From an uncultured Kiloniellaceae bacterium (GTDB taxonomy: Bacteria; Pseudomonadota; Alphaproteobacteria; Kiloniellales; Kiloniellaceae), in contig CANLSF010000001.1 in the NCBI GenBank assembly GCA_947493695.1, positions 1-64,000 of the forward strand: a stretch of 64,000 bases of DNA. Reading direction: 5' to 3'. The number at the start of each line of letters is the position of its first letter. Positions within the stretch are counted from its first letter, which is position 1. Under the pieces are notes generated by a model. That model searched no databases. It was not told the origin of the DNA and saw nothing but the letters and a program-made list of their open reading frames with translations. Shown here one piece after another: positions 53,005-64,000 of the stretch. Position numbers and translations under genes: made by a program.

Positions 53005-53970
53005 TTATTTTGCGCCTTCAGCAAGATAGGCGATAATGTCGTCGATATCTTTTTGCTTCTTCAGTTTCGCGACCATCTTGGTTCCGGGCACATATTCCTT
53101 CGGATTCTTCAGAAACTCGCCAAGGGCTTCGGGTGTCCAGACAATGGCGGTCGAGGCCATGGCCTTGGAATAGTTGTAGCCCTCGATGCTGCCCGCGGCA
53201 CGTCCGACAACGCCAACGAGGTGAGGCCCAACCTTGTTCTTTTCGCTCGTCGCTTCGTGGCAGGCTTTGCAACGCCGGAAGGCTTTTGCACCGGCTGCGG
53301 GATCTCCCGCAACCGTTGCTGCCGCCGCGACCGCAGAGACCTTAAGTCCTGCGGGCACGACTGCCGGGGATACCGCCGCACTCTTTTCATCGGCGGTGAA
53401 AACGAGGCGAAGCGAAATCGGCGCAGCCTGGGCAATAGAGCTCAGCTTGGCAGCTTCACGGAGCTTTTCGACGCCGTCGGTCAGACCGAAGTCGGCAACG
53501 TTGAGCATGAGCAGTTCATCGCTTGTCACCAGAACCTTGCCGTCGCTCAATCGCGCCACGAAGAGGCTGGCTTCAATGTCACCGCTTTGACCGGCAAGCG
53601 AGAGATTGGCCGTGACGTCCATCGTCATGGTATCACCGGCTTTCAGCGCTTCCAGCTTCTTCATATCTAGCTGGGTGGTGATGATCGCGTTCGGGAACTG
53701 TACCGCGTCGAAGACCCAGTTCAGCATGCGCTCGTTGCGGATATCGATCCAAGTTTCGACACTTGCAACGTCGATCTCGATTTTTACCGCGCCATCCGCG
53801 GCAACCTTACCGCTGACCGCACCGAAGTGATGCACTTCACCCACGGTCCCTTTTTTGACCGATCCAAAAGAAATTTTCGAGTCGTCGGAAGACAGACTCC
53901 AGCTTTCCGCCTGCGCCGTTCCCGTAAGAACCGCCAGGGCAAAAACCGCACTCGCAAAGGCTTTAATCAT
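53005..53970 (-). CDS. YceI domain fused to a class I cytochrome c
   Basis: A 321-residue periplasmic protein with a signal peptide (ASAVFALAVLTGTAQA). Residues 22-193 are a YceI-like lipocalin barrel (ESWSLSSDDSKISFGSVK, KIEIDVASVETWIDIR). After an Ala/Val/Pro-rich linker, residues 222-320 form a mono-haem cytochrome c with Cys234-x2-Cys237-His238 and the likely ligand Met299 in VPGTKMVAKL. YceI proteins bind isoprenoids or quinone-like lipids, so the fusion may couple such a ligand to electron transfer. A single gene ended by the hairpin at 52968. Confidence 0.88.
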   Translation of the reverse strand: MIKAFASAVFALAVLTGTAQAESWSLSSDDSKISFGSVKKGTVGEVHHFGAVSGKVAADGAVKIEIDVASVETWIDIRNERMLNWVFDAVQFPNAIITTQLDMKKLEALKAGDTMTMDVTANLSLAGQSGDIEASLFVARLSDGKVLVTSDELLMLNVADFGLTDGVEKLREAAKLSSIAQAAPISLRLVFTADEKSAAVSPAVVPAGLKVSAVAAAATVAGDPAAGAKAFRRCKACHEATSEKNKVGPHLVGVVGRAAGSIEGYNYSKAMASTAIVWTPEALGEFLKNPKEYVPGTKMVAKLKKQKDIDDIIAYLAEGAK

Positions 53971-54973: not shown

Positions 54974-56323
54974 ATGGACAAGACCCTCGCCAAATACCGC
55001 GACGCCCGGCTACCGCGCTACACCAGCTATCCGACTGCGCCGCATTTCACGCCTGAAGTCACTTCCGTGGACTACTCCGCCTGGCTCGGCGCGATCGGAG
55101 CGGATCAGAAGCTTTCGCTATATCTGCATATCCCTTTCTGCAGTCAGATGTGCTGGTACTGCGGCTGTCACACCAAGGTCGTCAACGGCTATACGCCGGT
55201 GGCCAACTACGTCACGCTGCTGCGCCAGGAGATCGAGATGGTCGCGGCGGCGTTGCCCGGACGCCGTCAGGTCGGCCATATTCACTGGGGTGGCGGTACG
55301 CCGAACCTTCTAACCGACGAGGATTTCGCCGGTCTGATGGATTTGCTGCGCAGACATTTCGATCTTACCCCCGACGCGGAGGTCGCCGTCGAGGTCGACC
55401 CGCGCAGGCTTGGAAAGACCCAGGCCAAAGCTCTTGCGGCGGCAGGGGTCAACCGGGCCAGCCTGGGGGTCCAGGACTTCAACAAGGATGTTCAGGAAGC
55501 CATCAACCGGGTTCAGCCCTTTGAAATGGTCGAGAAATGCGTCGCGGATCTGCGGGCCGCTGGCATCCCTTCGATCAATTTCGATCTGCTTTATGGTCTT
55601 CCGAGCCAGGATCTGAGCAAGCTGGAACGCAATCTGCGCCTGAGCGCCGCGCTGCGCCCCGACCGGATTGCCCTTTTCGGCTATGCACATGTGCCCTGGA
55701 TGAAAAAGCACCAGCAGCTGATCGACGAAGCGACCCTGCCCGACGGCCCCGCACGCGTGAAGCAGGCCGGCTTCTCCTCGAAAATGCTGGACTGGCTCGG
55801 GTACACACAGATTGGCCTGGATCACTTCGCACTGCCGGAAGACCCCATGGCCAAGGCCCTGTCCAACGGGAATCTGCATCGCAATTTCCAGGGCTACACG
55901 CTTGACGACGCGGAGGTTCTCATCGGCTTCGGCGCATCCGCCATCGGTAGCCTGCCGCAGGGCTACATCCAGAACAGCCCAGACTTCGTGGCCTATGCCA
56001 AGTCCATCCGGAACGGCAGCTTCGCCGTTGCACGTGGCCGGGAGCTAAACGACGACGATCGTCTACGCCGTCGTGCCATTGAAGAGCTGATGTGTCACGG
56101 CGAACTGGACGTTTCCGCCCTTTGCAATGCCGGGCATGTCGACAGCAAGGCATTCGATAAGGAACTGGACGAGCTGGCACCTCTGATCACCGACGGCCTT
56201 GTCGAACTTACGGATCAGAAAATCACCGTGACGGATCGGGGGCAGCCGCTTGTCCGTGCCGTTTGCGCCGTCTTCGACAGCTATCTGGAACAGAGCGAGA
56301 CGCGGCACTCACGGGCGATCTGA
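54974..56323 (+). CDS. hemN: Oxygen-independent coproporphyrinogen III oxidase
   Basis: A 449-residue radical SAM enzyme of haem synthesis. The [4Fe-4S] cysteines are Cys56, Cys60 and Cys63 in HIPFCSQMCWYCGCH, with RYTSYPTAPHF near the start and the HIHWGGGTPN motif. It oxidises coproporphyrinogen III to protoporphyrinogen IX without oxygen, in the cytoplasm. The Fnr box 41.5 bases before the ATG indicates anaerobic or microaerobic induction, in line with the cco genes. Confidence 0.97.
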   Translation: MDKTLAKYRDARLPRYTSYPTAPHFTPEVTSVDYSAWLGAIGADQKLSLYLHIPFCSQMCWYCGCHTKVVNGYTPVANYVTLLRQEIEMVAAALPGRRQVGHIHWGGGTPNLLTDEDFAGLMDLLRRHFDLTPDAEVAVEVDPRRLGKTQAKALAAAGVNRASLGVQDFNKDVQEAINRVQPFEMVEKCVADLRAAGIPSINFDLLYGLPSQDLSKLERNLRLSAALRPDRIALFGYAHVPWMKKHQQLIDEATLPDGPARVKQAGFSSKMLDWLGYTQIGLDHFALPEDPMAKALSNGNLHRNFQGYTLDDAEVLIGFGASAIGSLPQGYIQNSPDFVAYAKSIRNGSFAVARGRELNDDDRLRRRAIEELMCHGELDVSALCNAGHVDSKAFDKELDELAPLITDGLVELTDQKITVTDRGQPLVRAVCAVFDSYLEQSETRHSRAI

Positions 56324-56357: not shown

Positions 56358-56582
56358 CTATTTGTGGCGTGACTTGGCCTTGCGAAACCGCAGCACAAGA
56401 TAGCCTGCGGCGACGACCGCAAGCACAAGTCCGCCGACGTGAAAGGGTTCCTGAGCGAAGTGAGCGACGAAAGCGTTCACGTCCATACCGCCATGATCCC
56501 CGGGATGGGCCGCGAGAGGGCTTGCGACCAGGGCCGTGGCGGCAGCAACGGCGCTCGAAAGGGCGAAAATCTTAGTGGTCAT
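56358..56582 (-). CDS. Small HPGDH-containing membrane protein, last gene of the guanidine operon
   Basis: A 74-residue protein with a signal peptide ending in a His-rich motif AHPGDHGGMDVNAF, then one membrane helix (VGGLVLAVVAAGYLVL) and a basic tail. The HPGDH start of the mature protein resembles that of nickel/cobalt transporters of the HupE/UreJ type, but the rest of that family is absent. It overlaps the end of the His-rich protein gene by 11 bases, so the two are coupled. A role in nickel uptake or binding is only inferred from context. Confidence 0.65.
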   Translation of the reverse strand: MTTKIFALSSAVAAATALVASPLAAHPGDHGGMDVNAFVAHFAQEPFHVGGLVLAVVAAGYLVLRFRKAKSRHK

Positions 56583-57075
56583 GAGTCTCTTCCTGTTCTG
56601 AAATGTCGACGCGTTCGGCAAGCATCGGCACAAGATCGATATCCTCCCGCTCTGTCAACGATACATAGGTAAATGTCATGCTCTCCCGGCTTTCAATCAT
56701 CTTGCCGGGAAACGGCATGTAAAGCAGTTCGCGCGACGCGAAGGCCGGCGACGCGGTACCGATTTGCCAGTTGGCGACGATGGCGGCATCGACCAGACAC
56801 ATGGTCAAACCGTCGGAGCCTTTGCGCCGGAAGGGAATACCTGCGAGACGCAGATAGCTGGTCTTGTCTTCCGCTGCGCGGAAACCTTCCAGGAAGCTGG
56901 TCGCCAGAACTTTGACTTCCTCCGCCCGCTCCTTATCCGATTGGCCGTGCACATGACTGTGCAGATGTTCCGTGCCGTCGTGGCAGTGGTTATGACCGAC
57001 ACCAGGATGTGAATGTCCATGATGACCGTGTTCGTGAAGATGGTGGTGTGCAGAGCTGGTTTCGAGCTTCGTCAT
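56572..57075 (-). CDS. His-rich protein, candidate nickel-handling factor of the guanidine operon
   Basis: A 167-residue protein. The first 43 residues hold 16 histidines (HHHLHEHGHHGHSH, then HNHCHDGTEHLHSHVHG), a likely metal store like those of HypB or UreE. The rest (EEVKVLATSFLEGFRAAEDKTS and on) is not a family I know. It starts one base after the stop of the guanidine hydrolase gene, with AGGTGG as ribosome site. Known nickel-delivery proteins of guanidine hydrolase (GhaA, GhaB) are HypA/HypB-like; this protein has no GTPase motif and no HypA zinc site, so it would be a different solution. Inferred from context. Confidence 0.75.
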   Translation of the reverse strand: MTKLETSSAHHHLHEHGHHGHSHPGVGHNHCHDGTEHLHSHVHGQSDKERAEEVKVLATSFLEGFRAAEDKTSYLRLAGIPFRRKGSDGLTMCLVDAAIVANWQIGTASPAFASRELLYMPFPGKMIESRESMTFTYVSLTEREDIDLVPMLAERVDISEQEETHDH

Positions 57076-57076
57076 G

Positions 57077-58318
57077 TCAAGCCACCTCTGGGCCCGCGGG
57101 GATGGTGACCGGCTTGTCGATCAGGCCCTTGTGCGCCCCCATCTTGCCGTGAGCCACCAGTGTGCCCAGTACATCGACGATGACTCGGGTCGCCAGAAGC
57201 GCGGTAATGTCCGAAGTATCGTAAGGGGGTGAAACCTCAACGACTTCCAGACCGCAGATGCCTTCTTTGGCAACGAGAGAAACCAGTTCCAGCGCTTCAC
57301 GGGGCAGGAAGCCGCCCGGTTCCGGCCAGCCGGTCCCCGGCACGAACCCGGCATCGACGCAATCGATATCGAAGGAGAGGTAAACCGCGTCGGCATCTTT
57401 CCAGGCCAGCTCCAATGCCCGCGCCGCGGTCTCGGCCAGGCCCATTTCCTCGACATCGCGCATGGTAAAGATGCTGGTGTTACGCTTGCGCGCTTCCTCG
57501 ACGCCTTCGCGCGGCACCTGCCAGCCGCCAATGCCGATCTGCACCAGATTGACTGCCGGCACATTGGCCAGATCGGTGGCGTGATACCAGGGTGTCGTGT
57601 GCATGCGTTCGTCCAGGTCCTTTTCCTGGATGTCCACATGGCGATCGAAGTGAACGATCCCGATCCGCTTGGAGGTGCACTGCGCAATCCCCCGCACACA
57701 GGGGAAGCCGATGGAATGATCGCCGCCGATGATGATCGGCAAAGCCCCCGAAGAGGCAACATGGCTGACCGCGCGGGTGACCTGATCGAAGGTCTTTTCG
57801 ATATTGGCCGGAATGGTGAAAACATCACCCACGTCGCAGAGGGTCATCTGCTCGCGCAGATCAACGCCCATCTCGTAGTTATAGGGCGTGTAGAGCGCGG
57901 AAATCTTGCGCACGCCCTGCGGACCGAAACGCGTCCCCGGCCGGTAGGTGGTGCCACCATCAAAAGGCACGCCCAGAATTGCCGCATCGTAATTGCCGAC
58001 GGCCGTCACGTCCTCGATGTAGGGTGCCTTTAGAAAGGTATTGATCCCGGCGTAGTGCGGCAGTTCGCCCCGGGCGAAGGTCGGAATGGATTTGTCGGTC
58101 AGGGAGTCCGAGCCGGTCAGGCCCATGCGCAGAGCCCATTGCTTTTCCTTTTCCCAGGCTGCCGTCGGTAGATCCTTTTCCTTCTCCGCAGCCCGCCAGC
58201 CACGTAGCTGCAGCTTATCGAAGTCCGGATGATGGTGACGAACGGCAGCACGCTCTCCACCAATCGGTCCGGCGACCCGATGTCCACGACGGGTTACTCT
58301 GTTAAATCTGTCCTGCAT
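57077..58318 (-). CDS. gdmH: Ureohydrolase, probable nickel-dependent guanidine hydrolase
   Basis: A 413-residue arginase/agmatinase family enzyme. Metal ligands fit His201 in IIGGDHS, Asp225, His227 and Asp229 in HFDRHVD, and Asp317, Asp319 in SFDIDCVD. Arg in HFDRHVD, where agmatinases have Ala, and blocks like IPTFARGELPHYAGINTFLKAP and VPGTGWPEPGG match the cyanobacterial guanidine hydrolase GdmH as I recall it. It would cleave guanidine to urea and ammonia. The operon is preceded by a guanidine-I riboswitch and an ABC importer, which strongly supports this over agmatinase. The extra N-terminal region of about 70 residues is also typical of GdmH. Confidence 0.85.
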   Translation of the reverse strand: MQDRFNRVTRRGHRVAGPIGGERAAVRHHHPDFDKLQLRGWRAAEKEKDLPTAAWEKEKQWALRMGLTGSDSLTDKSIPTFARGELPHYAGINTFLKAPYIEDVTAVGNYDAAILGVPFDGGTTYRPGTRFGPQGVRKISALYTPYNYEMGVDLREQMTLCDVGDVFTIPANIEKTFDQVTRAVSHVASSGALPIIIGGDHSIGFPCVRGIAQCTSKRIGIVHFDRHVDIQEKDLDERMHTTPWYHATDLANVPAVNLVQIGIGGWQVPREGVEEARKRNTSIFTMRDVEEMGLAETAARALELAWKDADAVYLSFDIDCVDAGFVPGTGWPEPGGFLPREALELVSLVAKEGICGLEVVEVSPPYDTSDITALLATRVIVDVLGTLVAHGKMGAHKGLIDKPVTIPAGPEVA

Positions 58319-58336
58319 CGAAGGAAGTCCTTTGTT

Positions 58337-59122
58337 TTACGGGTTGGGTCGAGAGGGAAGAAGCTCGTCCAGCGAAGGCCGCGAGCTCTCCCGGTCATTT
58401 GTGAGAGGAAGGTCGTAGGTCACGGTTGCGCCGAAAGCGTCCGGCGCGTGAGGGTCATGACGCAGCTTGTCAAACACCAGCATGCGGGTGCCGAGCTTGA
58501 AAGCCTCGTTGATGTCGTGGGTCACCATGAAGACGGTCATGGAAAGCTCCTCCCAGAGGCCGAGCAGTAACTCGTGCATATCGGCCCGGATCCCCGGGTC
58601 GAGTGCGCCGAAAGGTTCGTCCAGCAGGAGAATATCGGGTTTCTTCAAGAGCGCCTGGGCAATGGCAAGCCGTTGTTGCATGCCACCGGAAAGCTGCGCC
58701 GGGTAACGCTTACGGGCAGGCGCCAATCCGATCTTTTCCAGCGTCTCGCTCACCATTTCGCGTGCAGCTTTGCGGTCCTGACCGAACAAACGGCCGGTCC
58801 AGCGGGACGCCTCGAATTCCGAGGCCATGATCAGGTTGTCTTCGACACTCAGGTGCGGAAAGACGGAATAGCGTTGAAAGACGATGCCCCGGTCCGGCGT
58901 GGGTTCCGGCGGGATGGGCGTGCCGTTCAGCTCAATCGCGCCACGCGTCGGCGTTTCCTGGGACAGCAACAGGCGCAGGAATGTCGACTTCCCGCAGCCG
59001 GATGCTCCGACAATGGTGCAGAAAGCGCCCTGCTCCACCTCAAGGTTCACACGCTCCAGAACCAGAGACTCGCCATAGGACATGGAAAGGTCCCGAATCC
59101 GGATCTGAGGCGCGGCGCTCAC
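58337..59122 (-). CDS. ABC transporter ATP-binding protein, guanidine operon
   Basis: A 261-residue ATPase of the nitrate/sulfonate/taurine importer group. Walker A is GASGCGKST at residues 39-47, the signature is LSGGMQQR, Walker B is ILLLDEP, and the switch His is in VTHDINEA. The start is GTG at 59122, which overlaps the permease stop as GTGA; the frame is open far upstream but that part lies over the permease. It powers the importer likely to carry guanidine. Confidence 0.93.
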   Translation of the reverse strand: MSAAPQIRIRDLSMSYGESLVLERVNLEVEQGAFCTIVGASGCGKSTFLRLLLSQETPTRGAIELNGTPIPPEPTPDRGIVFQRYSVFPHLSVEDNLIMASEFEASRWTGRLFGQDRKAAREMVSETLEKIGLAPARKRYPAQLSGGMQQRLAIAQALLKKPDILLLDEPFGALDPGIRADMHELLLGLWEELSMTVFMVTHDINEAFKLGTRMLVFDKLRHDPHAPDAFGATVTYDLPLTNDRESSRPSLDELLPSRPNP

Positions 59123-59940
59123 AGGCTGTCCCCCTTCAGGTGATGCCAGGGGAAGGCCCGCTTGGAGAGCAGACGCAGCAAGCGGTCGATGATGAAAGCC
59201 AACAGCGTAATCCAGGCCACGTAAGGCAAAATCACATCCATCGCCAGATAGCGGCGCACCAGGAAAATGCGGTAACCGAGCCCAGAGGTAGAGGCGATGG
59301 CCTCGGCTGAGACCAGAAAGATCCAGGCCGGCACCAGACCGAGCCGAACCGCTGTTATCAGTTGCGGCAAAGTCTGCGGCAGCACGATCCTGGTCACCAT
59401 CTGCCAGACAGAGGCCCCCAGGGTCTCGGCCTTGATGATCATTTCGCGCGGGATATCCATCACTGCCTGCGAAATGCCCCGGACCATCACCGGCGCGGTT
59501 CCGATGACGATCAGCATGATCTTGGAGACTTCGCCCAGGCCGAAGATGATAAAGAGAATCGGCAGGATGGTAATCGGGGGGATCAGCGAAAAGGTCGCGA
59601 CAAAGGGCGCCATCCCGCTGCGGACATGAGCGACAAACCCGATCGAAATCCCGAGTATCAGGGCAATCGCCGTCGAAATCAGCATCCCGGATCCGAGCCG
59701 CCAGAGACTGTCCCAGGTATCCAGCCACAGCAGATAGTTGCCCGAGCGCCGGTCCGCCTCGAAGGCCATACGCAGGAACGCCGAGCCGATGTCGCTAAGT
59801 GACGGCAACAGCTTATCCGCTGGGTTTTCCAGACGCCGGTAGTGACTGGCCACCGCATAGGCGACCAACACAGCGAGGAAGGGAATCAGACCCAGCAGAA
59901 AGGCCACTGGTGGGCTCGGTTTTCGGTTGGTGATGCGCAT
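59119..59940 (-). CDS. ABC transporter permease, guanidine operon
   Basis: A 273-residue inner-membrane permease with six hydrophobic segments. It contains the coupling-loop pattern AETLGASVWQMVTRIVLPQTLPQL. It resembles SsuC/TauC-type permeases. Such transporters are commonly found behind guanidine-I riboswitches. It overlaps the ATPase gene by 4 bases and lies 84 bases downstream of the binding protein. Confidence 0.93.
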   Translation of the reverse strand: MRITNRKPSPPVAFLLGLIPFLAVLVAYAVASHYRRLENPADKLLPSLSDIGSAFLRMAFEADRRSGNYLLWLDTWDSLWRLGSGMLISTAIALILGISIGFVAHVRSGMAPFVATFSLIPPITILPILFIIFGLGEVSKIMLIVIGTAPVMVRGISQAVMDIPREMIIKAETLGASVWQMVTRIVLPQTLPQLITAVRLGLVPAWIFLVSAEAIASTSGLGYRIFLVRRYLAMDVILPYVAWITLLAFIIDRLLRLLSKRAFPWHHLKGDSL

Positions 59941-60024
59941 GCTTGCAATCTCCGCCTACCCCGCCCAGCCTCACACGGAGGCCGGACGGCGCAGAACAGA
60001 TCCTATTCAGAGAGCGCCCAAACT

Positions 60025-61095
60025 CTAGAGAGCGCCATCAGCGGCCATCTGCATGTAGGTGCTGTCAAACCGCAGTTTGACATTGTTGGGATCGCCGTAT
60101 GTCGCCCCACCCGGGAAAGCGACACCGACAAATTCCGGACTTGGCGCGCCTTCGCCCAGAATGCCCTTGTCGAACAGAAACTCTGCGACGAATTTCATGG
60201 TTTTGGGCAGCTCAGACGACTGACTGAAGATCACCGCATCCGCAGGCTTGTAGAACATCTCTGTGGTCGCAAGTTGCGCGTCGTAGCCGGCAAGATCAGT
60301 GCCCGAGGCCTCGGCCATCGCCGTACGCGCGGCCTTACCCTCGACAGTGTCCGACGCCATAAGCGCGGCCACTTCATACCAGGCACCGGTCAGGGCTTTA
60401 CCGAAAGCGGGGTTAGCTTCCAGGGTTTCAGTATTGACCATCATCACATCGATGATTTCACCGGGGATACCAGCACTGTCAAAGACCTTGGTCGCGCCCT
60501 TTTGCGCTTCGATTTCAGAGAGCAGAGGATTCCAGGTAACGACGGAAGTCACATCAGACGTGCTGTAGGCCGCAATCATGTCGGCATCAGAGGTGTTGAC
60601 GACGGTCACGTCCCGTTCGGCCAGGCCGACGGAATCCAGAGCACGGGCGAGCAGGTAGTGGGAAACGGAGAGCTCGACCAGATTCACACTCTGTCCCTTT
60701 ATTTCCTGCAGCTTGCCTTTGTCTTTCAGGATGATCCCATCGTTGCCGTTGGAATAGTCGCCAACAATCAACGCAGTGGTATCGACCCCGCCACCGGCAG
60801 GAATGGAAAGCGCATCCATGTTGGTCATGGAACAGCCGTCGTAGGCACCTGCGGTGTACTGATTGATAGATTCGACGTAGTCGTTGATCTGCACAATCTC
60901 GACATCGATTTCGTATTTATCGGCCCATTTCTTCATGATGCCGGAATCCTGCAGGTAACCCCACGGCATCCAGCCGACATAGATTGACCAGCAGACTTTG
61001 AATTCGGTTTTTTCAGTGGCCGTTGCGGCGGGCGGCGAGACCGTGAAGGTCAGGGCCGCGGCAAGGCAAATGGCTTTGGTGAACATCCGTAACAT
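60025..61095 (-). CDS. ABC transporter substrate-binding protein, probable guanidine receptor
   Basis: A 356-residue periplasmic receptor of the NMT1/TauA type with a signal peptide (MFTKAICLAAALTFTVSPPAATA). Blocks VCWSIYVGWMPWGYLQDSG and GAYDGCSMTNMDALSIPAGGGVDTTAL are visible. The start at 61095 has GGAGAAG 9 bases upstream; ATG at 61086 is an alternative. It is the first gene after the riboswitch, so guanidine is the likely ligand. The related riboswitch-linked receptors were first annotated as nitrate/sulfonate binding proteins. Confidence 0.9.
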   Translation of the reverse strand: MLRMFTKAICLAAALTFTVSPPAATATEKTEFKVCWSIYVGWMPWGYLQDSGIMKKWADKYEIDVEIVQINDYVESINQYTAGAYDGCSMTNMDALSIPAGGGVDTTALIVGDYSNGNDGIILKDKGKLQEIKGQSVNLVELSVSHYLLARALDSVGLAERDVTVVNTSDADMIAAYSTSDVTSVVTWNPLLSEIEAQKGATKVFDSAGIPGEIIDVMMVNTETLEANPAFGKALTGAWYEVAALMASDTVEGKAARTAMAEASGTDLAGYDAQLATTEMFYKPADAVIFSQSSELPKTMKFVAEFLFDKGILGEGAPSPEFVGVAFPGGATYGDPNNVKLRFDSTYMQMAADGAL

Positions 61096-61151
61096 GGCTA
61101 TGCGCTTCTCCTGTTCGTTGGGCCGACACCTTATGGAGCGGCCTTGCAACC

Positions 61152-61197
61152 AGGTTCTGCGCGCACACACCGGGAGAAGGCTTGCGCGCGCAAACCT
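61152..61197 (-). promoter_or_regulatory. Hairpin in the riboswitch expression platform
   Basis: Between the aptamer and the first gene, arms at 61184-61197 and 61152-61164 pair over about 11 bp. There is no T run. The loop contains CTTCTCC (61173-61179), complementary to the ribosome site GGAGAAG of the first gene (61105-61111). This suggests control of translation. Confidence 0.6.
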
Positions 61198-61206
61198 ATG
61201 CAGTTT

Positions 61207-61309
61207 ACTCCCGGGTTTTTATCCCGCCGTGTCACCGGATCTATGTCATGGGTATCCGGTTTGCGCCTCTCGGTCCTGCATCGGAAACAGATCGGAACCC
61301 TAGGCGCGC
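61207..61309 (-). promoter_or_regulatory. Guanidine-I (ykkC) riboswitch aptamer
   Basis: On the minus strand the RNA begins GCGCCTAGGGTTCCG and later has GGACCGAGAGGCGC, which closes stem P1 (GCGCC with GGCGC, 61303-61307 with 61263-61267). A second stem ACCGGAT/ATCCGGT follows, and then ACACGGCGGGATAAAAACCC and GGGAG. These match the conserved parts CUAGGGUUCCG, GGUCCGAGAG and ACGGAGGGACAAAAGCCCGGGAG of the guanidine-I class. It lies 112 bases upstream of the binding-protein gene and faces the operon. Confidence 0.93.
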
Positions 61310-61562
61310 TGCATTGCCTTCACTTCGCAATGTCTGTGCCAAACTGGAGCAGCGTCGACTTTTGCGATCCTTTTCAAACCGATAGCCAGATACCGACCAG
61401 TAGAACACCTCAAACAGGCGACAGAACCGCGTCGCCAGTGATCAAAAATTGTCGCATTGCACAATTAGTAAGCAGAAACTTCGCCGCCAACGCGCAAGCT
61501 GATCTGTCCCGCGCCCTGCCACGTATCACCAGAGAGAAAAATTAATCTGCACCAAAAGCCCT

Positions 61563-63131
61563 ATGATCATGCCCAACAGAGAGCCGGCTCTTCAAATCGT
61601 CTGGTTCAAGCGCGATCTGCGCATCGAAGACCACCGTCCGCTTGCCAAAGCCGCGGCCAGAGGGCCTGTGTTGCCGCTGGCCGTGATCGAACCGGAGCTC
61701 TGGCAACAAGCGGACATGTCAGGCCGTCAGTGGGCTTTTGCAGCAGAGTGTCTTTATGAGCTGCAAGAGTCTCTCGCAGCTCTTGGGCAGCCTCTCATTG
61801 TTCGGACTGGCCGCATCACCGAAGTCTTGGATGAAATTGCGCGCGTCCACACCATCGCAGCGCTCTGGTCTCACGAGGAAACCGGTAATCTCTGGACGTT
61901 TGAGCGCGACAAGCAGGTCGACACCTGGTGTCGTGCCGCCGGTGTCCCCTGGTACCAGGAGCGTCAAAGCGGCGTGATACGCCGCCTGAAGTCCAGGGAT
62001 GGCTGGGCACGACGCTGGGACAGCTTTATGGCTGAAGCCGCCGCCGCGGCTCCAGCTCTACTGCAGCCTCTCTCGGGGTTCGAACCCGGAGACATACCGA
62101 GTGCCGGCGAAATTGGTGTGACCCCGGACGTCTGCCCCGCGCGACAGAACGGGGGACGCCGGAATGGTTTAGAACGGCTCGACAGTTTTCTCCACGACCG
62201 GGGCGAACCCTACCGGACCGCAATGTCGAGCCCCTTGACCGCTTTTCAGGCCTGTTCCCGGCTTTCGCCTCATCTGGCCTGGGGCAGCCTCTCGCCGCGC
62301 GAGATTGCGCAGGCCACCTGGGCCAGGCAGCGCGCACTGAAGACTGCGCCAAAAGGCACCACCGGCTCGTGGCGCGGCGCGCTCAGTTCCTTCACAGGAC
62401 GCCTGCATTGGCACTGCCACTTCATGCAGAAGCTGGAGGATGAGCCGGACCTGGAAGTCACGAATCTGCACCGGGCCTACGATGAATTGCGCCCGAAGGA
62501 GCCCGACACGGCGAGACTCGCCGCCTGGCAAAAGGGCGAGACCGGCCTGCCCTTTGTCGACGCCTGTATGCGTGCGCTGGCCGCGAGTGGCTGGATGAAT
62601 TTTCGCATGCGCGCCATGCTGATGGCAGTTGCCAGCCAACATCTCTGGCTGGACTGGCGTAAGCCGGGCGAACATCTGGCGCGCCTCTTCACCGACTATG
62701 AGCCGGGCATCCACTGGCCGCAGGTTCAAATGCAGTCAGGCACGACAGGCATCAACACGGTACGGATCTATAATCCGGTCAAGCAAGGGCACGATCAGGA
62801 TCCGGACGGCAGCTTTACCCGCCGCTGGCTGCCGGAACTTGCGGAGATTCCAGATGTGGCGCTTCAAGAGCCCTGGAAGTGGGACGGCGCAGATCGGGTC
62901 CTGGGCAAGCATTATCCCTTTCCGATCATCGATCATCTGTCAGCCGCAAAGGAAGCGCGCCAAAAAGTATGGGCGCTGCGGCGCGGACCCGCCTTCAGGG
63001 AAGCTGCGGACAAGATCCAGAACAAACACGGCAGCCGCAAAAGCGGCATTCCCAATACCGGGCGGAAATCCCGCAAGAAAGAAGATCCGGCTCAATTGAG
63101 CTTGCTGCCGAGTGAAGAGTCCCAGATATGA
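61563..63131 (+). CDS. Cryptochrome/photolyase family protein
   Basis: A 522-residue flavoprotein. The N-terminal photolyase domain starts IVWFKRDLRIEDHRPLAKAA. The FAD-binding part shows GETGLPFVDACMRALAASGWMNFRMRAMLMAVASQHL (seen as GLPFVDACMRALAASGWMN and FRMRAMLMAVASQHLWLDW) and the end of the pocket near YEPGIHWPQVQMQSG. It repairs UV-damaged DNA or senses light; the exact class is not clear from sequence alone. It overlaps the DUF2256 gene by ATGA. A second photolyase-type gene converges on the pair. Confidence 0.9.
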   Translation: MIMPNREPALQIVWFKRDLRIEDHRPLAKAAARGPVLPLAVIEPELWQQADMSGRQWAFAAECLYELQESLAALGQPLIVRTGRITEVLDEIARVHTIAALWSHEETGNLWTFERDKQVDTWCRAAGVPWYQERQSGVIRRLKSRDGWARRWDSFMAEAAAAAPALLQPLSGFEPGDIPSAGEIGVTPDVCPARQNGGRRNGLERLDSFLHDRGEPYRTAMSSPLTAFQACSRLSPHLAWGSLSPREIAQATWARQRALKTAPKGTTGSWRGALSSFTGRLHWHCHFMQKLEDEPDLEVTNLHRAYDELRPKEPDTARLAAWQKGETGLPFVDACMRALAASGWMNFRMRAMLMAVASQHLWLDWRKPGEHLARLFTDYEPGIHWPQVQMQSGTTGINTVRIYNPVKQGHDQDPDGSFTRRWLPELAEIPDVALQEPWKWDGADRVLGKHYPFPIIDHLSAAKEARQKVWALRRGPAFREAADKIQNKHGSRKSGIPNTGRKSRKKEDPAQLSLLPSEESQI

Positions 63132-63283: not shown

Positions 63284-64000
63284 TCAAGCCGCCGTCTCGG
63301 GTGAGGTCTTGACCGCCTCATAGCCCGCAAGCGCCGCAGCGCGGGCTGTAGCGTGATCGACGATCGGCTTCGGGTAATCTTGGCCCAACCTGATACCGGC
63401 GGCGGCCAGTTCCAGGTCGGTCATCTCAAAGGGCGCATGGATAGACTTGTTGTCCAGATCCGACAGCTCGGGACAGAAGCGCCGCACGTAAATCCCGTCC
63501 GGATCGAACTTCCGGCCCTGGGTCATGGGATTGAAGATCCGGAAATAGGGGGCCGCGTCCGCACCGCTTCCTGCCACCCACTGCCAGCTCGCCGAGTTGT
63601 TCGCGAGATCCGCATCCAGCAGCGTGTCGCGGAACCAGGCCTCGCCGTGTTTCCAATGCAGGCGCAGATGCTTGATCAGGAAGCTGGCCACCACCATCCG
63701 CACCCGATTGTGCATGTAGCCGGTCTGCCAGAGCTCGCGCATACCCGCATCGACGATGGGATAGCCGGTCATCCCGCGCTGCCAGGCTCGCAGGTCCTCT
63801 GCGCTCTCCCGCCAGGGATAGTTGTCGAAGGCCGGGCGCCAGTTCTTATCGGGCAGGCTCGGGAAGTGATAAAGCAGGTGATGTGAGAACTCGCGCCAGC
63901 CCACCTCGCTCAGAAACTTCCCGGCGTCCTTGCTTATCTCCGGGCAGCCTTCTTCCAGAAAGCGGGTGCGCGCCCAGATCTGTCGCGGCGAGATCTCACC
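63284..64000 (-). CDS. Deoxyribodipyrimidine photolyase, C-terminal part
   Basis: The last 238 codons of a photolyase; the N-terminus lies beyond the right edge and the frame is open to the end. The FAD and DNA-binding part shows GWREFSHHLLYHFPSLP, GMTGYPIVDAGMRELWQTGYMHNRVRM (as GYPIVDAGMRELWQTGYMH and NRVRMVVASFLIKHL), and DADLANNSASWQWVAGSGADAAPYFRIFNP. These match class I CPD photolyases. Light-dependent repair of pyrimidine dimers is expected. It converges on the DUF2256 gene with a gap of six bases. Confidence 0.93.
   Translation of the reverse strand, partial: GEISPRQIWARTRFLEEGCPEISKDAGKFLSEVGWREFSHHLLYHFPSLPDKNWRPAFDNYPWRESAEDLRAWQRGMTGYPIVDAGMRELWQTGYMHNRVRMVVASFLIKHLRLHWKHGEAWFRDTLLDADLANNSASWQWVAGSGADAAPYFRIFNPMTQGRKFDPDGIYVRRFCPELSDLDNKSIHAPFEMTDLELAAAGIRLGQDYPKPIVDHATARAAALAGYEAVKTSPETAA

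Follow-up and report, generated by a model that had tools for sequence, protein, structure and literature searches.

A 64,000-nucleotide stretch from an uncultured Kiloniellaceae bacterium (contig CANLSF010000001.1, assembly GCA_947493695.1; hereafter the window) carries an operon that lies entirely on the minus strand and reads, in order, a guanidine-I (ykkC) riboswitch, the substrate-binding protein, permease and ATPase of an ATP-binding cassette (ABC) importer, a ureohydrolase, and two small genes that we call P5 and P6. The alphaproteobacterial origin assigned to this DNA from its letters fits its nearest kin, Kiloniellaceae/Denitrobaculum at 95%. An initial annotation of the window described positions 56358-61309 as a full guanidine uptake and hydrolysis unit. 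This span covers the operon genes, but it ends 5 nt before the 5' end of the aptamer. The proposed unit is supported by the sequence but is incomplete, as the last two genes were left out. A unit of riboswitch, importer and guanidinase is already known from published accounts (PMC8390497, PMC12186494 and PMC11410670), and it is the last two genes, unmentioned by the initial annotation, that hold whatever is new here.

The ureohydrolase gene (P0004; 57077-58318) matches PF00491 with 265.3 bits. In the PDB, the best match of its product is the Synechocystis protein (7esr/7oi1; 545 bits, E 9e-163) and the second is that of Nitrospira inopinata (9fek; 535 bits, E 1.5e-159), while the next ones, proclavaminate amidinohydrolase and guanidinobutyrase, reach 173 bits each (E 7e-50). 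Both leading entries are named ‘probable/putative agmatinase 2’ in the PDB, and PMC11410670 identifies both as guanidinases. Thus, by sequence search, the enzyme groups with the guanidinases, as had been expected. For comparison, we used 80 related loci, the top 80 among 584 matches in GTDB genomes. The motif HFDRHVD, which had been pointed out as replacing the agmatinase pattern HFDAHTD, is indeed present in the window enzyme as well as in both solved guanidinases, and HFDRH(I/A/V)D is found in 81/81 sequences (window plus 80 loci). The same holds for TGWPEPGG (81/81), and the GTTYR pattern is missing from L088 only (80/81). The specificity residues reported for the Synechocystis enzyme, Thr97 and Trp305 (PMC11410670), correspond to T124 and W331 of the window enzyme. 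Ten ureohydrolase-family matches, gdmH included, are found in the window's own genome; the nine paralogs are at most 37% identical to it, and the four of them whose motif was read out all have Ala instead of Arg (HIDAHSD, HFDAHTD, HIDAHCD and HFDAHVD). An agmatinase was considered and rejected, given scores of 173.1 against a cut-off of 174.3 for TIGR01230 (a narrow miss) and 215.6 against 302 for PRK02190, and given the PDB ranking, in which the guanidinases are far ahead. Taken together, these comparisons support the assignment of the gene product as a predicted GdmH-like guanidine hydrolase, which among the solved ureohydrolases is nearest to the characterised guanidinases.

A single base separates the stop codon of gdmH from the start of P5 (P0005; 56572-57075), which encodes a protein of 167 residues consisting of a His-rich N-terminal tail and a conserved domain, and for which we propose a role in nickel delivery. 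Among nickel proteins such as UreE, HypB and HypA, some couple a folded domain with a His-rich tail. The mode of action of P5 would be similar, yet it matches none of their families: the window protein gives no match at E ≤ 1 in either Pfam or NCBIfam, nor any in PHROGs, and none of the 81 members (window plus 80 loci), scanned singly, matches a HypA, UreE, HypB or other nickel-chaperone model at E 0.1. The weak matches of individual members are to a few families, several of them metal (zinc, nickel) transporters and others unrelated, the best being a viral movement protein family in Pfam (E 0.016) and ZrgA in NCBIfam (E 0.0023). Across the 81 sequences, the tail is 40% His, with a median of 17 His in a median length of 40. 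D70, P110 and P123 are invariant in 81/81 beside the start Met, and a further 34 positions are at least 90% conserved, including the tail motifs HNH (28-30) and LHSH (38-41). The conserved domain comprises about 100 residues, has no His in the window protein, and is modelled confidently by AlphaFold (block means of 91-97 over residues 51 to 150). A second model, that of the L061 member, agrees in the order of its secondary-structure elements except for one short strand. Foldseek searches of the PDB with these two models gave no match at E 0.001; links to COMMD-like proteins and to cystatins were dismissed, as the best E values, 0.19 and 0.16, are not significant. P5 is labelled ‘hypothetical protein’ in both annotated plasmid records examined. 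Literature searches, which covered most papers at the level of listings and did not extend to supplements, brought up no mention of a P5-like gene; Funck et al. 2022, known to us through citing papers, may mention it.

The distribution of P5 ties it closely to gdmH. A P5 homolog stands directly downstream of gdmH in 80/80 of the alphaproteobacterial loci, the weakest match having an E of 2.2e-15. Its start lies within -20 to +15 nt of the gdmH stop in 77/80, although these short gaps, like the invariant M1, are partly built in, since a script set the start at the earliest in-frame ATG, counting from 20 nt upstream of the gdmH stop. Two samples of genomes were also searched. Of 385 class genomes, 11 hold gdmH (E 1e-90) and 13 hold P5 (E 1e-5); every genome with gdmH also has P5, adjacent to it. 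The other two are G125 (locus L103), with a P5 fragment that lacks the N-terminal part and no gdmH, and G365 (locus L104), which has no gdmH and in which part of a binding-protein gene is joined to what is left of P5; the latter fusion could be an assembly fault. The fragment in G125 adjoins a permease-like gene with a His-rich loop. Of 398 phylum genomes, 7 hold gdmH (E 1e-80), and in all of these (7/7) P5 (E 0.001) is no more than about 0.4 kb away; a match in G579 (E 6.1e-4) was not counted as P5, because it is confined to the His-rich part of the model (positions 9-56). The two samples share G000 and G107, giving 16 distinct gdmH genomes, all of the window's class, some of which may overlap with the 80 loci. 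No intact P5 without gdmH was found in either sample. On plasmids, gdmH (E 1e-80) was matched in 11 records, nine of which were examined (L091-L093 and L130-L135, leaving aside H7 and H8 from S. fredii), and P5 follows gdmH in 5/5 alphaproteobacterial records. In a separate arrangement, the Rubrobacter indicoceani plasmid (L130) carries a gdmH-like gene without P5, which adjoins a sodium:solute symporter gene and has a urease cluster a few genes away; this different layout could serve the same pathway.

The urea that would be formed by the enzyme could be used, given that a urease is present in the genome (one urease alpha match). Urease was detected in 16/16 gdmH genomes compared to 100/357 class-sample genomes (E 1e-30). 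These 100 include every one of the 11 genomes with gdmH from the first class sample, a co-occurrence with a rough hypergeometric value of 5.5e-7, kinship ignored.

Nickel helpers are reported for related enzymes: hypA and hypB occur with gdmH analogs (PMC8390497), activation of GdmH is said to require GhaAB (PMC11271267), metformin hydrolase is accompanied by hypA, hypB and hupE (PMC11399263), and a chaperone knockout is unable to grow on metformin (PMC11271267). HypA (PF01155) was not found in the window's own genome, which rules it out there as an in-operon nickel source, and it was not found in 11/16 gdmH genomes, the own genome included; in the other 5/16, it is on a contig different from that of gdmH. 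A HupE_UreJ gene directly follows P5 in 3/3 S. fredii plasmids examined and in G532, and PF04955 (HupE/UreJ) was confirmed for L091, L134 and L122. The position of HupE is taken in the window by P6 (56358-56582), which shares 11 nt with the 3' end of P5 and encodes 74 residues with a signal-like N-terminus, an AHPGDHGG motif and one hydrophobic segment. A P6-like gene is present at this spot in 36/81 cases, window included, by a simple rule, and in 26/80 loci by sequence similarity. P6 does not qualify as a member of HupE/UreJ itself, since PF04955 has no match in the window protein and gives 13.5 bits against a cut-off of 23 for the L072 homolog.

The operon can be set beside three known systems. 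That of Synechocystis sp. PCC 6803 likewise has a guanidine-I riboswitch, an ABC importer and a nickel guanidinase (PMC12186494; PMC8390497), and its GdmH (Sll1077) is the best PDB match noted above. It differs in having the HypA/HypB-type proteins GhaA/GhaB where the window operon has P5 and P6; a cyanobacterial-type operon, with a hypA-type gene inside it, is not what the window contains, its genome having no PF01155 match (HypB was not searched). Nitrospira inopinata shares the guanidine-I riboswitch and a guanidinase with the T and W residues, and differs in using an APC permease instead of the ABC importer (PMC11410670). The nickel route to its guanidinase is called unclear in that account, which reports that no HypA/HypB-type or other nickel chaperone was found in the genome (PMC11410670). 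The MefH/DmgH operons resemble the window operon in encoding a nickel ureohydrolase, which there is accompanied by HupE and by nickel helpers of its own, and differ in their two-subunit enzyme and in having hypA and hypB upstream; a P5-like gene is not mentioned in the text consulted (PMC11399263).

The interpretation that we favour, and consider probable, is that of a guanidine-induced operon in which P5 passes nickel to a nickel guanidinase. Guanidine would bind the aptamer and shift the leader towards a fold in which the first gene's ribosome site is free. The GdmH-like enzyme, with a nickel centre as in its two characterised homologs, would then convert guanidine to urea and ammonia, and the urease encoded elsewhere in the genome could split the urea. 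P5 would be made in lockstep with the enzyme, its His-rich tail probably binding Ni2+ and its conserved domain handing the metal to the enzyme, in a role like that of GhaA/GhaB for cyanobacterial GdmH. Delivery of nickel by P5 is in this scheme what its tail, domain and linkage suggest. P6, or HupE in a few relatives, might perhaps aid the entry of nickel into the cell. Whether one may go further, and see P5 as founding a nickel metallochaperone family that is new and independent of HypA/HypB, has a fold absent from the PDB, is dedicated to alphaproteobacterial guanidinases and is substrate-induced through a riboswitch, with P6 as a minimal stand-in for HupE, we judge to be evenly balanced.

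Several observations weigh against nickel delivery by P5. The 80 loci are the closest matches, so that the complete linkage seen among them comes from a biased sample, and P5 was not found within 6 kb of gdmH in 4/4 actinobacterial plasmids. Three members, L061, L063 and L064, have all but lost the tail, keeping 3 His each, and the L072 protein carries its His run at the C-terminus. Nickel could be supplied by HypB, UreE, UreG or SlyD, which were not searched for. No HupE relative was found in the 80 GTDB loci as fetched (0/80); HupE adjoins P5 in 1/16 gdmH genomes (G532) and is present somewhere in 11/16, and it is beside P5 in 3/5 alphaproteobacterial plasmid loci. The rarity of HupE near P5 lowers our confidence both in this reading and in the new-family case. 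P6, for its part, exceeds no Pfam cut-off. In the literature, one study found metformin hydrolase activity in E. coli extracts to be unaffected by co-expressed chaperones (PMC11271267), and the guanidinase of comammox bacteria is active with no chaperone known for it (PMC11410670).

Some of these points would suit a P5 that partners the guanidinase in a structural or regulatory role, acting on its stability, assembly or inhibition, with the His tail being secondary. This explanation, unlikely but deserving of some weight, would account for the one-to-one linkage of P5 and gdmH, the lack of any His of its own in the conserved domain of the window protein, the nearly tailless members and the scarcity of HupE next to P5. 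It does not readily fit with the HupE genes that do follow P5 in some operons, the failure to find HypA in most gdmH genomes, or the conservation of HNH and LHSH within the tail. It is rather doubtful that P5 is merely a nickel store or buffer in a known guanidine operon, making no specific hand-over to the enzyme: the varying length and place of the tail and the activity of the comammox enzyme would be in keeping with such a role, whereas the folded domain is conserved too, with its three invariant residues, and intact P5 is seen only beside gdmH in the class and phylum samples. Finally, it is highly improbable that the operon acts on something else, for instance urea or a substituted guanidine, with free guanidine being just the inducer, for although the binding protein's family is named for urea and the metformin and dimethylguanidine hydrolases are homologous (PMC11399263), the metformin hydrolase subunits score at most 140.4 bits in the PDB search against 535-545 for the guanidinases, the T and W specificity residues are retained, and a guanidine-I aptamer is present. 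As a nickel-delivering protein, P5 would be a compact candidate for guanidinase nickel loading in Alphaproteobacteria of several orders, and if it does load nickel, a useful co-expression partner for producing active guanidinase.

The claims made for the upstream half of the operon were likewise upheld. All three importer components are matched by family models, namely the substrate-binding protein (P0001; 60025-61095) by TIGR03427, PF13379 and PF09084, the permease (P0002; 59119-59940) by PF00528 (76.7 bits), and the ATPase (P0003; 58337-59122), the GTG start of which overlaps the permease stop, by PF00005 (115.3 bits). An NMT1-type binding protein, a BPD permease and an ABC ATPase thus occur together, in agreement with the SsuABC/TauABC-like type that had been proposed. 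The TIGR03427 score of 563.6 bits is well over the cut-off of 333.9, the family being named ‘putative urea ABC transporter substrate-binding protein’. Upstream of gdmH, the binding protein is found in 76/80, the permease in 78/80 and the ATPase in 77/80 loci, counts that depend on the position limits of the script and in which some of the missing parts reflect cut contigs. Homology and the riboswitch suggest that the importer takes up guanidine.

The guanidine-I aptamer is the only Rfam gathering match in the whole window. It lies at 61206-61314 and is full-length, covering model positions 1-107 of the 107 in RF00442, with a significant score of 72.5 bits against the gathering cut-off of 63 (E 5.8e-11), so that the riboswitch call of the initial annotation stands. 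A covariance model (R1) made from seven aptamers, the window's own among them, matches 72/80 related loci as well as the window, one of the 72 being cut by a contig end. Of the eight loci without an aptamer, seven have less than 3 kb of upstream sequence, whereas the eighth, L046, lacks one despite 9 kb. Among GTDB relatives, the two closest (L010 and L011; 95% GdmH identity) have an aptamer match that is 223 nt long (L010:5899-6121 and L011:5878-6100), i.e. about 114 nt longer than the 109 nt in the window, and the extra sequence, judged by eye, sits within one stem-loop.

Many leaders of the related loci show conservation past the aptamer. The motif CTCCCGG, which is the complement of CCGGGAG, the last conserved strand of the aptamer, is present in 44/73 leaders compared to 33/1460 composition shuffles; it is absent from rhodobacterial leaders such as L071, L083 and L089 and from the Pelagibius leaders L060, L062 and L066. 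The next strand (TGTGCGC in the window) is complementary to the spacer between the ribosome site and the start codon. This leader-spacer duplex has z < -1.64 in 32/41 leaders and z > 0 in 4/41, with no correction for kinship; L013, L028 and L039 (3/44) are not included, since the script located no ribosome site and start in them. The window itself has z = -1.26. Leader motif and pairing counts together define a proposed expression platform at 61099-61214. Its off pairing joins the aptamer 3' strand 61214-61208 with 61176-61170 and its on pairing 61202-61198 with 61166-61162, while the spacer 61105-61099, next to the ribosome site at 61112-61106, is a possible partner for strand 61167-61161. 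Without guanidine, CCGGGAG would pair with CTCCCGG and the second strand would cover the spacer; with guanidine, CCGGGAG would stay in the aptamer and the second strand would pair with TGCAC/TGCAT just behind it.

In 37 leaders, 93.4% and 94.8% of cells are paired in the two folds, compared to 14-57% for slid versions, the structure having been derived from the same leaders. The underlying alignment (A3) is without L036, L051, L057 and L058 (4 of 41 leaders), and since the first three had z > 0, their omission tilts the pair counts towards the switch model. No covariation beyond that of shuffled letters was detected in the proposed pairings of the 37 leaders, and energy folding did not distinguish the two states. 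An intrinsic terminator was discarded as the switch, there being no five-T run in the 160 nt past the window's aptamer. A translational switch fits better, and we put it forward as a proposal.

Beside the riboswitch are two convergent DNA photolyase-family frames at 61563-63131 (plus strand) and 63284-63904 (minus strand), both with PF03441, which is the only domain in the latter frame as listed. A HemN-type radical SAM gene (54974-56323, plus strand) is convergent with the end of the operon, and further on, a gene at 53005-53970 (minus strand) encodes a YceI-like domain (PF04264) and a cytochrome c domain (PF00034) in one protein. In Pelagibius litoralis, a strong match to 5_ureB_sRNA (RF02514) is located about 8 kb downstream of gdmH (L062:18405-18692, minus strand).

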